In this document: positions 17,309 to 28,352 of the stretch, piece by piece
How the letters are laid out: every line of letters starts with the position of its first letter
Position numbering within the stretch: the first letter of the stretch is position 1
Assembly (NCBI GenBank): GCA_963204715.1
Contig: CAUJHK010000038.1
Span: 1-47,673, forward strand
DNA length: 47,673 nt
Origin: Pseudomonadota bacterium
GTDB lineage: Bacteria; Pseudomonadota; Alphaproteobacteria; Micavibrionales; Micavibrionaceae
Reading direction: 5' to 3'
Notes under the pieces: model-generated
The model's input: only the letters and a program-made list of their open reading frames with translations
Told to the model about the DNA's origin: nothing
Databases searched by the model: none
Position numbers and translations under genes: made by a program

Positions 17309-17902
17309 TTATTTCCCCAGCTTTGTGGTTTTCCCATCAGGGTCTACCCAGCCGACATTTCCGTCTTTGCGCAAATACACCATGTTCAGGCCGCCATGCT
17401 GGGCATTGCGGAACATCAGGGCTGGCAGGCCAGACAAATCAAGGCGCATGGCTGCTTCGGAAGGTGACATGGTTTGAATCTGCGTGGTCATTTCCGCAAT
17501 CACAAGGTGGTCGGCCACTTCTTCTTCGTTGTCCTGTTCTGCGGTCAGGGTATAGTCTAGCGCAGGCAGGGGCGCAGATTCGGATGACACATCCTCGCTG
17601 CGCTCATGGTGGTCACGCAGGCGGCGTTTATAACGGCGCAGCTGTTTGGCCACTTTTGTGGCCGCACTGTCAAAGGACACATAGGGGTCGTTCTCTGTGG
17701 CGTCTGAAATCACCATAATGTCCTTGCCCACACGGATGGAGATGTGGGTTTTTGTAAAGGCATGGCCTTCTGGTGAAAATGTCACAATCGCCTCTATTGC
17801 GCGGTTGAAGTATTTTGCGTTCATATCCTCCAGCTTGCCTTCCACATGCGTGCGAAGGGCTTCGCCAAGATCCATTTGTTTGCCTTGTACGGTTAATTGC
17901 AT
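17309..17902 (-). CDS. hpf: Ribosome hibernation promoting factor, long form
   Basis: MQLTVQGKQMDLGEALRTHVEGKLEDMNAKYFNRAIEAIVTFS (RaiA) and C-terminal domain EAAMRLDLSGLPALMFRNAQHGGLNMVYLRKDGNVGWVDP. Confidence 0.94.
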   Translation of the reverse strand: MQLTVQGKQMDLGEALRTHVEGKLEDMNAKYFNRAIEAIVTFSPEGHAFTKTHISIRVGKDIMVISDATENDPYVSFDSAATKVAKQLRRYKRRLRDHHERSEDVSSESAPLPALDYTLTAEQDNEEEVADHLVIAEMTTQIQTMSPSEAAMRLDLSGLPALMFRNAQHGGLNMVYLRKDGNVGWVDPDGKTTKLGK

Positions 17903-18046
17903 GGTTTCACCTTTTGTGTTTTTCATTATGAAGCCCGCCAAAGGACTGGGCACGCGCAAAAAAGCCACGTTGTGCCATCTCCTTAGGGGGTATAGATATA
18001 GTATAGTGCTTTTTGGTTAATAAAAAAAGGATGATGCTTTAAAATC

Positions 18047-18190
18047 ATGAAAAAAATTAAAAAGATAGGCGTGTTTGATTCAGGCCTTGGCGGGCTTTTT
18101 ATAGCACAATCAATAAGAAAACGCTCATTCTCCTGTATAATTACGTCTAACCAAATTTTAAAACGCCCGCCACATTGTGGATGGAATTAG
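18047..18190 (+). pseudogene. murI: Truncated 5' fragment of glutamate racemase
   Basis: Translation MKKIKKIGVFDSGLGGLFIAQSIRK... carries the hallmark IGVFDSGLGGL of MurI, then diverges and stops after 47 codons. Confidence 0.75.
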
Positions 18191-18938
18191 CACGATACAT
18201 TTCATCCATAATTGTGCTGTCGTTGTCATTCGACGGAATTCCTGATGATTTATCAAATTTTCTTTTCAACCGTTCCCCATCTTCTTTGACCAACTGGCCT
18301 TGCATATGGTCTAAACGTGATAACACAGCCTTTTTCTCATTCTCATCACCCACATCGCAGGCGATTTTAAAATCCTGCGCCACTTCGTTTTCGCCAATCG
18401 CGATAAACACGGCCGTGATGGCCGCGTGGTGAATTTCACGCCCTGATAATTGTTCATCGCGCGGCAAATGTTTGTTATTCCCGCGAAGGCGTTTAATGGT
18501 GTCTGTGCGGATGGATTGGTAATAGGATAAGGGGTAGCCATTAATATCTTCCACACATTTGGCACGCAGAACGGCCTGAATTTCCTTGGAACGAAAAATG
18601 GATTCACTTGTTGCCCCACAAACAAAGGTCTTGATAGACCCGTCAATGTTCAGGCAGTAACGAATAGAAGAACTGATCCAGATTTTTTTCAAATCAGTGT
18701 CAGAATATCCTTCTATGAATCTTCGGTCTGGAATATCTAGAAATACTCCACCTTCTGTCTTAAAAACAGGATACATGCCGTTTTGTTCAGCAAATTTATG
18801 AGCCAAATTCCAGTTATCAAATTTTCCTTGACGGTCAATGCCAGCAAAAAGCATGGCCTTTCTAAACGATTCAAAAGATAGAATACGTAACTGCTTACGA
18901 TCATTGCTGTAAGTTGGTTGGGTCGGGTTCTGGGTCAA
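18147..18938 (-). CDS. Hypothetical protein, no recognised family
   Basis: 263-aa ORF, coherent composition; overlaps upstream ORF by 38 nt (same strand). Confidence 0.65.
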   Translation of the reverse strand: MTQNPTQPTYSNDRKQLRILSFESFRKAMLFAGIDRQGKFDNWNLAHKFAEQNGMYPVFKTEGGVFLDIPDRRFIEGYSDTDLKKIWISSSIRYCLNIDGSIKTFVCGATSESIFRSKEIQAVLRAKCVEDINGYPLSYYQSIRTDTIKRLRGNNKHLPRDEQLSGREIHHAAITAVFIAIGENEVAQDFKIACDVGDENEKKAVLSRLDHMQGQLVKEDGERLKRKFDKSSGIPSNDNDSTIMDEMYRANSIHNVAGVLKFG

Positions 18939-19320
18939 TTTTTAATCTCCATTTACCGCGCCAATTTTCTTCAAAGTCTTTTTCAAGAGACGAAACGATA
19001 TGGTTATAAATTTTGTAAGTTAAATCAGAATCACCTAAAAAATTATCTTTAAGTTTTCCTAAAATCCATTTCTCAGAAATACCAATAACCGTTTGCCCTG
19101 TTACCTCATCTAAACTCATTTTGGCATTAAGCTTTACAGTCATAGAACCAAAAGAAGCAGTCATTCCAAGGTAATTACCCCATGATTCCTCTTCCAAAAT
19201 ATTAAACTTCACATCGGGCAAAACGCCATAGGACATTTTTCGTTTCATATCCTCGATGGCCAGTTCTTTTTGCCGTCTTTGGCTTTCTTCTGCAAGGTTC
19301 GCTACGTTTAACGGTATCAT
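18901..19320 (-). CDS. Hypothetical protein, no recognised family
   Basis: 139-aa ORF immediately upstream of and overlapping 18147..18938. Confidence 0.65.
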   Translation of the reverse strand: MIPLNVANLAEESQRRQKELAIEDMKRKMSYGVLPDVKFNILEEESWGNYLGMTASFGSMTVKLNAKMSLDEVTGQTVIGISEKWILGKLKDNFLGDSDLTYKIYNHIVSSLEKDFEENWRGKWRLKIDPEPDPTNLQQ

Positions 19321-19493
19321 CGTTCATCTCTTAAAGTTCTTTGTGGAATGGCGCAAATAGTACCACAACAACCTTCAAGACAAAAGATTATTATCGCAAA
19401 TCATTTAAGAAATAATTAATGACAAATATTTTTAAAAAAACAAATAAAAACAAATGGTTAGTATATGATATCTTTATAGTAAGGGATAAAACT

Positions 19494-20954
19494 TTAACGC
19501 GCTTTTTGCTTCCTACGCTGGACGCTGGAAGGGATGTTCAGCATATCGCGGTATTTTGCAATGGTTCTGCGCGCGATATCAATGCCTTCTTTTTGCAGCA
19601 ATTCCACAAGCGCATCATCCGATAAAACATCATCTGGCTTTTCATCATCGACCAACGATTTAATCCGCGCCTTGATGGATTCAGAGGAGTAGGATGTGCC
19701 GTCTGCTGACACAAGGGCGGTGGAAAAGAAATATTTCAGCTCAAAAATACCGCGCGGCGTACCGATATATTTGTTGGTGGTCACGCGGGATACCGTGCTT
19801 TCATGCATATCAATAGCCTGCGCAATATCTTTAAGCGTCAGCGGCCTTAAAAATTCAATGCCGAAATTAAAAAAGGCGTCCTGCTGCTCCACCAGCTCAG
19901 AAGCCACTTTCAAGATGGTTTGCGCCCGCTGGTCGAGTGATTTGACAAGCCAGTTCGCGTTGTTCATCTGTGTGGTGATATATTCGCGGTCTTTCTTGTC
20001 CTTGGTGGAGTTTGACACCAGCGTGTAATACTCATTGTTGATAAGCACGCGGGGGAGGGTTTCGGTGTTCAGCTCCACGCGCCAGCCCCCACCCAGATGC
20101 TTGGCCTGCTTTTTCATCAAAACGTCGGGAATGGCCGTTTGCACAACCATATGGTCGAAGTCAGAGGCAGGCTTGGGGTTTAAGGATTTGATATCGCCTA
20201 TCATGTCCAGAAGATAGAGCGTGTTCACATCACATTTTTTGGCAAGCTCGTTCATGTCATGGCTGGCTAGCAAATGCAGGTTTTCCAAAAGCTTTCTCAT
20301 AGGCTCATCCAGCTTGCTTTGGTCTTCAAGCTGCAGGGCAAGGCAATCTTTCAAATCCTTGGCAAAGACGCCTGCGGGGGAAAACTTTCTAAGCTTGTCC
20401 ATCAGGGCTTCTATGCGCGCGCCTTCAGTGCCCAACTTTTGCGCCAGTGCTTGCGTGCCTTCGCGCAAATATCCTGCCTCATCCACCATATCAATCAACA
20501 AGGCGCCAATCATGCGGTCTTTGGGGTCATCAAAGGTTACGTTGAGTTGTTCCAAAAGGTGGTCGCGTAAAGTTTCTTGCTTGGCGAGGCTGCTTTCGAA
20601 GCCTTCATCCATGGAATCAAAATTGCGGTTGCCGCCCGCGCCCACTTGCGCGGTGCCTGCATCAAAATCAGATGTTGCGCCCGCGGCCTTGGTGTCTTCC
20701 CCGCTCCATTCCCCATCAAAATTATCTTCGAGGGAATCGCGCTCACCCTCTGCAGCATTCTCTTGAATCGGAGTTTCAGACTCGCCCTCGCTGGCCTGTT
20801 TTTCAAGAAGGGGGTTTTGCGCAATTTCAGAATCAATAAATTCGGCCAGCTCAACATTGTTCATCTGCAAAAGCTTGATAGCCTGTTGCAGTTGGGGGGT
20901 CATGACAAGGTTTTGTGACTGGCGCAGATCAAGGCGCTGGTTGATATTGCTCAT
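19494..20954 (-). CDS. rpoN: RNA polymerase sigma-54 factor
   Basis: LDLRQSQNLVMTPQLQQAIKLLQMNNVELAEFI, DIAQAIDMHESTVSRVTTNKYIGTPRGIFELKYFF, IARRTIAKYRDMLNIPSS. Confidence 0.97.
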   Translation of the reverse strand: MSNINQRLDLRQSQNLVMTPQLQQAIKLLQMNNVELAEFIDSEIAQNPLLEKQASEGESETPIQENAAEGERDSLEDNFDGEWSGEDTKAAGATSDFDAGTAQVGAGGNRNFDSMDEGFESSLAKQETLRDHLLEQLNVTFDDPKDRMIGALLIDMVDEAGYLREGTQALAQKLGTEGARIEALMDKLRKFSPAGVFAKDLKDCLALQLEDQSKLDEPMRKLLENLHLLASHDMNELAKKCDVNTLYLLDMIGDIKSLNPKPASDFDHMVVQTAIPDVLMKKQAKHLGGGWRVELNTETLPRVLINNEYYTLVSNSTKDKKDREYITTQMNNANWLVKSLDQRAQTILKVASELVEQQDAFFNFGIEFLRPLTLKDIAQAIDMHESTVSRVTTNKYIGTPRGIFELKYFFSTALVSADGTSYSSESIKARIKSLVDDEKPDDVLSDDALVELLQKEGIDIARRTIAKYRDMLNIPSSVQRRKQKAR

Positions 20955-26308: not shown

Positions 26309-26342
26309 AATAAACCCGCCATATTTGATAACGGGTTTAAAG

Positions 26343-26543
26343 CTAGACTGTTTTCTTGTTGTCATTGGTGGCTTCATCATGCGCCATTTCACAAAGGATG
26401 ATGGCGACTTCCAAATCCTTGAACGGCACAGAGTCCATCAAAGGGTATAAATATTGCGTGCGCGGTTTCATTCTTTTAATATCACCCAGTTTTTTGATAA
26501 GACAGCGATATCGCATCAAATAGGTCTTGTCTGGTTTTCCCAT
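26343..26543 (-). CDS. Small hypothetical protein
   Basis: 66-aa ORF, TAATG overlap with upstream small ORF. Confidence 0.5.
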   Translation of the reverse strand: MGKPDKTYLMRYRCLIKKLGDIKRMKPRTQYLYPLMDSVPFKDLEVAIILCEMAHDEATNDNKKTV

Positions 26544-26770
26544 TATGCCGCCCTCCGTACCAAACCCAGTTGTGCGCGATAGGCTTCATCCATCGCCTTG
26601 GCGCGGTTTTCGATCTTTTTATACGCTCGTAGCGCGTTGCGCGCCTTTGCCTTTTCCTCATAGGCCTGGTTGTAAAGCTGTTTTACATCAAAGAACGATA
26701 TGTCCCTTTTAGAGGCCTTCACCCGCAAAACCCTTTGAATCCCTTGTTTTAGTCCCCACATTTTAACCAT
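26543..26770 (-). CDS. Small basic hypothetical protein
   Basis: 75-aa ORF, divergent from the XRE gene, coupled to 26343..26543. Confidence 0.5.
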   Translation of the reverse strand: MVKMWGLKQGIQRVLRVKASKRDISFFDVKQLYNQAYEEKAKARNALRAYKKIENRAKAMDEAYRAQLGLVRRAA

Positions 26771-26840
26771 TGAATGCTCCTTCTTTTATTACGCAGTTGT
26801 TTACACCGTGCTAGTTATAGCAATCAAAAGTTAATTTAAG

Positions 26841-26895
26841 ATTAAAAAAAATGATTTTAATTGTGTTTTAAATAAAAATCGTTTTAATAGACGAT
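26841..26895. promoter_or_regulatory. Operator-like dyads upstream of XRE gene
   Basis: ATTAAAA-N7-TTTTAAT (26841-26861) and ATCGT-N8-ACGAT (26878-26895); also 14/17 direct repeat AAAAATGATTTTAATTG / AAAAATCGTTTTAATAG. Confidence 0.5.
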
Positions 26896-26909
26896 ATAAA
26901 GGGTTAAAA

Positions 26910-27548
26910 ATGATTTCAGGTGAACAAATTAGAGCGGCAAGGGCTTATATGGGTTGGTCACAAACAGAGCTTGGTGAGAGAGCCAATTGCTCTTTATCTA
27001 CCATTGCCAAGATTGAAAGGCTTGAGGGGGACGTTGGGTCAGACATCCTTGAAAAGATTAAATACGCTTTTGAAAAAGAAGGAATGTTTTTCACCGATGA
27101 TGGCCTGATTAAAAGAAGTGCCTCTATGTATGAGATTGAAGGTGATGGTTGGTGGCTTCGTGTGTTGGATGATGTCTATAAAACCATGATTGATAAAAAA
27201 GGCGCGGAGATACTTTTGTTTTGTGCGGACGATAGAGAGTCTCCAGCAGAGGTTAATAAGGTTTGGTCAAAAATACGGAACGCTGGCATAGGCATGCGTC
27301 AATTGGTTCGTGAAAGTAACACATACCTAATGGGGCCAACAAAAGAGTATCGTTGGATACCAAAGGAATACTTTGAAAATTATGTGACCATGGTTTACGG
27401 CGACAAGGTTTGTTTTTGTGCCGAAAATAATACCAAAGCCGTGATATTTAGGGATCGTCGACAAGCAAACACAATGCGAAACCTATTCAACCTTCTTTGG
27501 AACAAATTGGAAGAGCCAAGTGAAAGTACTGCACCAGATCGCTTCTGA
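26910..27548 (+). CDS. XRE-family HTH regulator with TrmB/PLD-like C-terminal domain
   Basis: EQIRAARAYMGWSQTELGERANCSLSTIAKIERLEGDVGSD HTH; C-terminus YVTMVYGDKVCFCAENNTKAVIFRDRRQANTMRNLFNLLWNKL resembles TrmB-type sensor domain. Confidence 0.82.
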   Translation: MISGEQIRAARAYMGWSQTELGERANCSLSTIAKIERLEGDVGSDILEKIKYAFEKEGMFFTDDGLIKRSASMYEIEGDGWWLRVLDDVYKTMIDKKGAEILLFCADDRESPAEVNKVWSKIRNAGIGMRQLVRESNTYLMGPTKEYRWIPKEYFENYVTMVYGDKVCFCAENNTKAVIFRDRRQANTMRNLFNLLWNKLEEPSESTAPDRF

Positions 27549-28149
27549 TTACCGTGTGACGGTAAATGGAAAATATGGCTCTCGCCCTTCTGATAAGGCG
27601 CGGATACAAATTAGTATTGGCAATCCAAAATATGAAAGCGCGAAAATGCTTACCCTAACTCGGTGGTGCGCCTCTCGGTTTAAAGAAACTGAAATCATTG
27701 TGAGTGATACGTTACAAAGGCATAATCTTACAAATACGGATATGTCTAACGCTTGGAATATAACCCGTGAAGAAGGTGAAAAGTGGTTGCGACGTAATGC
27801 AGTGGCATTAGAGGGCTTTACAATCACCCGTTGGGATTCACTTTTGCATCATCATAACTATGCCATCTCTTTGGACGTTATTGAAGAAAATCTAAAGAGT
27901 GACAAAGCCAATAAAAGCTTTATGGACATGGCACAAGAATTTTCAATACGTCGTAAGGTTCCCATAGAAAATTGCAGGGCCTTTTTAAAAGAAGAGTTGG
28001 CTATCTTTTATTTTATGATGCAAGAACCCGCCGTGGATATTTATGCAGGATCTTGGATTTCAAATATCTTTGAAACCCTCTCACTTCCTGTTTTTAAAGA
28101 TTTACATTGTTTAGAGGTAGATTTTGAAAAACTAAAGCAGAATCGTTAG
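27520..28149 (+). CDS. Divergent tRNA-dependent cyclodipeptide synthase (CDPS)-like protein
   Basis: RIQISIGNPKYESAKMLTLTRWCASRFKETEIIVSDTLQRHNL matches CDPS pattern GIS..NSYF...L..WA..RF....VVV.DT; CRAFLKEELAIF matches the Y-x3-E-L/A-P region. No database search run. Confidence 0.7.
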   Translation: MKVLHQIASDYRVTVNGKYGSRPSDKARIQISIGNPKYESAKMLTLTRWCASRFKETEIIVSDTLQRHNLTNTDMSNAWNITREEGEKWLRRNAVALEGFTITRWDSLLHHHNYAISLDVIEENLKSDKANKSFMDMAQEFSIRRKVPIENCRAFLKEELAIFYFMMQEPAVDIYAGSWISNIFETLSLPVFKDLHCLEVDFEKLKQNR

Positions 28150-28352
28150 ATAAAAAATACCAGATTTTAGGGTTGAACATCTCGCCCGCAAAATCGCCTA
28201 ACACTCCTCATAAATTTCATCCACAAAAATGAATCTTAATCAAACCAAGGGTTTGAAGGGGATGGGGGTTTTCGCCTCTGTTCAGGGCAGGTTTTTTTGT
28301 TTTAGATGGATTATCACATTTGAAAATAAAAAATCTTTTAGGACTTTCGCTT

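Follow-up and report, generated by a model that had tools for sequence, protein, structure and literature searches.

Cyclodipeptide synthases (CDPSs) are known from clusters such as those for albonoursin, pulcherriminic acid, mycocyclosin and bicyclomycin, in which they build the scaffold from aminoacyl-tRNAs. These clusters carry oxidases, P450s or methyltransferases beside the synthase, and an XRE/TrmB-like regulator is not reported for them in the part consulted of a survey that covered 721 CDPS clusters in 2018, which describes PAS-domain neighbours, proposes signalling and, in that same part, leaves a regulator pairing unmentioned (PMC5767969). Adjacent genes for a signal synthase and a ligand-responsive transcription factor that move as a unit are familiar from LuxI/LuxR-type pairs. 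On the sensory side, archaeal TrmB proteins are sugar sensors, and they share with TrmBL2 a degenerate PLD-like sensor fold. We describe here a two-gene cassette that joins an XRE/TrmB-fold regulator to a CDPS (Table 1). It lies in a window of 47,673 nucleotides, the whole stretch of DNA analysed, from an alphaproteobacterium of the Micavibrionaceae. Its synthase would resemble those of the known clusters in using aminoacyl-tRNAs, but the cassette has none of their tailoring genes and does have the regulator. CDPSs and TrmB-fold sensors are each already known; a literature search for XRE- or TrmB-CDPS pairs, a swappable cassette family and Micavibrio cyclodipeptides, in which few subscription journals and preprints were covered, found no description, suggesting that the pairing of an XRE/TrmB-fold regulator with a CDPS is apparently undescribed.

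Table 1. Features of the regulator-synthase cassette and its surroundings, in window coordinates.
Feature	Position	Strand	Description
Regulator ORF	26910-27548	+	ATG start, 212 aa; XRE HTH at about residues 4-55, TrmB/PLD-fold sensor domain at about residues 72-200
Synthase ORF, XYP-like CDPS	27520-28149	+	GTG start, 209 aa
Shine-Dalgarno-like GGAAGAG	27509-27515	+	Within the regulator gene, 4 nt ahead of the synthase GTG; read from sequence
AT-rich upstream region, presumed cassette promoter/operator	26771-26909	+	Intergenic; from 26860 on alike in the cassette of a congener
Inserted AT-rich segment, approximate extent	26310-28320		40% GC; missing at the matching place in two congeners

The regulator begins with a lambda-repressor-like HTH of the XRE family that scores above the Pfam cut-offs (PF01381, HTH_3, 26.8 vs 23 bits; PF13560, HTH_31, also passed). 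Its AlphaFold (AF2) model has a pLDDT of 91.8, and in a Foldseek search the C-terminal domain of this predicted model matched TrmBL2 (E 4e-6), the PLD-family nuclease Nuc (3e-5) and TrmB (9e-4), which bears out the XRE HTH and TrmB/PLD-like C-terminal region that had been proposed from sequence alone. In Pfam, NCBIfam and PDB sequence searches the C-terminal domain had no relative, and only the HTH was matched. The protein is set apart from TrmB and TrmBL2 by this lack of detectable sequence similarity, by its bacterial origin and by its tie to a synthase gene. It also has an XRE HTH instead of a TrmB-type winged helix, and with a C-terminal domain that Pfam does not recognise it falls outside the TrmB family proper (PF11495). 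The closest match by fold, TrmBL2, has been described as a chromatin protein, hence the fold alone is no proof of ligand binding. An orthologue in the same genus is 81% identical.

The second gene had been read as a CDPS from its sequence pattern, and the structural comparison run on it agrees. The synthase model matched the CDPS 5ocd in Foldseek with an E value of 2e-12 and a TM score of 0.8, followed by AlbC, Rv2275 and then TyrRS; the TM scores for 5ocd, 5mlq, AlbC and Rv2275 were 0.6-0.8, and the protein has the class Ic aaRS/CDPS Rossmann fold. At the sequence level, phmmer found 5mlq at 1e-10, and a profile of close canonical homologues matched 5ocd among the solved CDPSs at 3e-50. By profile and Foldseek the nearest enzymes are CDPSs of the XYP subfamily (Fluoribacter dumoffii 5ocd, Nocardia brasiliensis 5mlq, Rickettsiella grylli 5mlp), which the window synthase resembles in fold, length, the Ser nucleophile and the positions of Glu182 and Tyr202 (AlbC numbering). 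Aligned with AlbC, it keeps Ser37 (S32), Glu182 (E159) and Tyr202 (Y175), whereas position 178 is Phe (F155) instead of Tyr and the XYP signature (X40-Tyr202-Pro203) is broken by A176 at position 203, its clade reading Y-A. Its fold, its descent and three catalytic residues make the enzyme a CDPS, and it derives from XYP enzymes although it lacks the Pro. Tyr178, the XYP proline and a curated score (single-sequence scores of 22.8 vs 27 bits for PF16715 and 32.5 vs 45 bits for TIGR04539) are all missing, and we therefore file it as a CDPS variant.

In active CDPSs, Ser37, Tyr178, Glu182 and Tyr202 hardly ever vary (PMC7566563), and AlbC is substantially impaired by Y178F (PMC5935735), so the window enzyme may be slow or yield another product. 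The residue table has Phe at position 178 in the window and in L052, L053 and L054. Phe178 and Ala203 are common to the window, G001, G025 and G022, which form one clade (bootstrap 100/98), while the table shows Tyr and Pro for all 14 remaining canonical homologues. This remodelled active site (Y178F, P203A) had been missed by the sequence-only reading, as had the presence of the regulator in many other enzyme cassettes. Between the window and the congener, pN in the CDPS gene is 0.28 and pS 0.75, with silent sites saturated; a pN so far below pS points to strong constraint, which argues against decay. In a divergent subgroup of paired CDPSs outside the order (L077 and L078, from G076 and G200), Phe likewise occupies the Tyr178 position (FVLEE) and Tyr-Pro is kept, hence the Tyr178-to-Phe substitution seems, by sequence comparison, to have arisen more than once. 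The window's own genome encodes a second regulator-CDPS cassette (G000:C13, L105:4509-5902), whose divergent CDPS-like protein carries Cys in the position of the catalytic Ser37 and Trp directly following Tyr202; the only relative seen, in G034 (L106:3581-5046), has the same two changes. Apart from this two-member Cys variant, the catalytic Ser is kept in the homologues of the order.

When the synthase profile was run by itself, and thus independently of the regulator, over 58 genomes from the same order, it recovered 23 CDPS genes, spread over 17 of these genomes. Directly upstream and on the same strand, the regulator is present at every one of these loci (23/23), and most pairs overlap, usually by 4-29 nt (commonest 14 nt). 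The sequence-only reading had described two same-strand ORFs overlapping by 29 nt in different frames; both ORFs exist, the 29-nt overlap is found in the window and the congener, and because the same layout is found again at 23/23 loci it is not a chance arrangement. In the congener the synthase start is kept at the -29 position, as an ATG with a GGAG-like site. Promoter scans found no sigma-70 match above chance in the upstream region, and promoter and terminator scans gave no signal exceeding chance. In a sample of the class outside the order, five of the six strongest CDPS matches are paired too, one of them with a remnant of the regulator where the contig ends; unpaired CDPSs were found in G406, a Caedibacter record and a gammaproteobacterial MAG. 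Around the 23 loci no third gene recurs beyond neighbours common to closely related or syntenic sites. The expectations of a conserved pairing and of a cassette free of tailoring genes have thus held, and the two findings named beforehand as damaging, a missing CDPS fold and homologues that consistently lack both the partner and the catalytic Ser pocket, were looked for and neither overturned the reading. CDPS relatives were absent from the viral contigs searched. On plasmids, the regulator search gave partial HTH matches only, and the CDPS search led to four plasmids, all from a single sponge symbiont, on which the CDPS gene follows a hypothetical gene of 1.5 kb, far longer than the regulator. 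One CDPS relative annotated as hypothetical (L265, MK748464.1) is located on the renieramycin plasmid of Candidatus Endohaliclona renieramycinifaciens and adjoins a putative sensor histidine kinase.

The cassette is inserted as a unit. At the window site it is flanked by a GGDEF-like gene and by a TPR gene with its downstream gene, and in two congeners, G001 (C152) and G002 (C17), these flanking genes adjoin with no cassette between them, leaving an empty site in both. G001 carries a cassette at an unrelated site, and there only positions 26860-28129 are alike (67%, blastn). The inserted segment has 40% GC, whereas the window as a whole averages 49% (sd 3.2% when cut into 1.9 kb windows). Neither an integrase nor convincing boundary repeats were seen at the insertion. 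The cassette apparently is a mobile two-gene unit, and its occurrence at different sites as two genes fits the proposed lack of tailoring functions. Two short ORFs (66 and 75 aa; 26343-26770, minus strand) lie beside the cassette within the inserted segment, one of them with a weak DUF4709 match. A second AT-rich stretch of the window (17851-19750; 39.6% GC, the window minimum) contains ORFs at 18150-18938 and 18904-19320, which match no Pfam family over cut-off, and adjoins a ribosome hibernation factor-like gene (Ribosomal_S30AE, 17312-17968).

The regulator family reaches beyond CDPSs. We examined 129 regulators of the family in the same genomes; the next gene downstream is EgtD-like (Methyltransf_33) for 34, the largest class, and a CDPS for 23, followed by LPG_synthase_C (9), GNAT-like (8), other SAM methyltransferases (7), formyltransferase-like (4, a weak assignment with Formyl_trans_N at E 0.02) and single FemAB-like, PALP and SHMT genes. 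For 24 of the 129 the next gene is on the opposite strand. One EgtD-like partner matched a solved EgtD at 2e-7. On the regulator tree, regulators with the same type of partner cluster strongly, with 26 changes of partner type compared to 71.7 in shuffles (0/200 as low), and a tblastn search behind regulators with other partners revealed no relic CDPS; its one match, at L065, is a genuine CDPS. Counting the window's own genome in each sample, the sensor domain is present in 25/385 genomes of the class and in 4/249 of the phylum.

Sensor and synthase vary together. Over 20 pairs, regulator and synthase distances correlate with an r of 0.785 when kinship is ignored (0/5000 permutations as high). 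When the regulator was split (18 pairs), the sensor domain followed the synthase with 0.79 and the HTH with 0.27, the partial correlations being 0.77 and 0.13, and sensor sub-windows matched in length to the HTH still gave 0.63-0.73. Such a pattern is expected if what the sensor detects is particular to the synthase, and it lends indirect support to the proposed signalling or self-sensing, although recombination that swaps HTH parts could produce an equal pattern without any co-evolution with a ligand. The same test on EgtD-type cassettes gave 0.16 and -0.04, a weak or absent co-variation, and we therefore do not generalise the effect beyond CDPS cassettes.

We propose that the cassette is an autoregulated diketopiperazine synthase in which the sensor reads the product or its synthesis, a reading to which we give about an even chance. 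Its observed basis is the folds, the gene order and pairing, the overlap geometry, insertion as a unit and sensor-enzyme co-variation, whereas activity, product, ligand and direction of control are what we infer. Regulator and synthase would be made from one mRNA by translational coupling. The synthase would then take amino acids from two aminoacyl-tRNAs, with Ser32 as nucleophile, Glu159 as base and Tyr175 as cyclisation relay, and release a diketopiperazine without tailoring. The TrmB-like domain may bind this diketopiperazine or a reporter of its synthesis, and binding would alter the contact of the XRE part with its operator, and in this way the cassette would monitor its own output and keep it under control. 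The logic would be akin to a LuxI/LuxR pair or to product-feedback control. Likeness to LuxI/LuxR is one of working only: the protein families are unrelated, we claim no family membership, and a signalling role of the cassette is putative. Few diketopiperazines have an assigned biological role, and a two-gene system of this kind makes the old idea of cyclodipeptides as signals directly testable. In addition, the Phe178/Ala203 and Cys37 variants could be used to probe which CDPS residues are truly needed.

Several other readings have to be weighed against an autoregulated synthase. The cassette could be an ordinary biosynthetic gene with its pathway regulator, where an external cue, for example a nutrient, an amino acid or a metabolite from prey or host, turns on a secreted diketopiperazine and no self-sensing takes place. 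The sugar sensing of archaeal TrmB proteins fits such an arrangement, and so does the position of the regulator family ahead of unrelated enzymes (EgtD-like, LPG/Fem-like, GNAT, formyltransferase-like), as would be expected from general regulators of small-molecule genes. The clustering of partner types on the regulator tree and the much closer match of the sensor domain than of the HTH of the same protein to the synthase sequence speak for partner-specific sensing, and we regard an external cue as somewhat unlikely. A loss of cyclisation is a further option, with the synthase degenerate or repurposed and now forming an aminoacyl-enzyme or a linear dipeptide, or serving the regulator as a sensor of charged tRNA. 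Y178F and P203A throughout the four-genome clade (bootstrap 100), the strong impairment of AlbC by the first of these changes (PMC5935735) and the Cys for the catalytic Ser in the second CDPS-like protein of the genome all point this way. Ser, Glu182 and Tyr202 are retained, however, the gene is under purifying selection, and both substitutions are derived and jointly fixed, whereas decay would have scattered them, which makes a repurposed enzyme unlikely in our judgement.

Quite improbable, we think, is a toxin-antitoxin or tRNA-tapping module in which the XRE protein would repress or neutralise a synthase that depletes charged tRNAs. The overlapping genes, the mobility and patchy presence of the cassette and the aminoacyl-tRNA-using or -modifying members of several partner classes (CDPS, LPG/Fem, GNAT, formyltransferase) would suit such a module, and the XRE part does resemble the HTHs of type II antitoxins, albeit in a generic way. 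CDPSs are routinely expressed in E. coli, though, and a minimal antitoxin would lack the full TrmB-like domain that the regulator possesses. Moreover, the largest partner class, the EgtD-like methyltransferases (34/129), is no obvious toxin type, and PADLOC and PHROGs searches with both proteins returned generic HTH matches for the regulator and no match for the synthase.

Beyond the single autoregulated cassette, the regulator copies that head varied enzymes make up a swappable sensor-enzyme architecture. It is possible, and we say so tentatively since we would sooner bet against it, that the family forms a class of mobile sensor-enzyme cassettes not described so far, found in Micavibrio-like Alphaproteobacteria and others with small genomes, with a common XRE/TrmB-fold sensor, interchangeable amino-acid or aminoacyl-tRNA enzymes (CDPS, EgtD-like, LPG-synthase/Fem-like, GNAT, formyltransferase-like and PLP enzymes) and each sensor reading the product of its own enzyme. 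If so, one genome would hold several private chemical circuits, including the CDPS variants with Phe178/Ala203 and with Cys for the catalytic Ser, and the wider family would supply natural biosensor-enzyme pairs. Paralogues of the regulator that head other enzymes are found at L108, L109, L112, L115, L119-L124, L126-L128, L132-L136, L139, L140, L142 and L144. At the last of these loci (G028 contig C14, 1-7291), three such regulators lie within 7 kb, with PALP-family and SHMT-like enzymes as partners.
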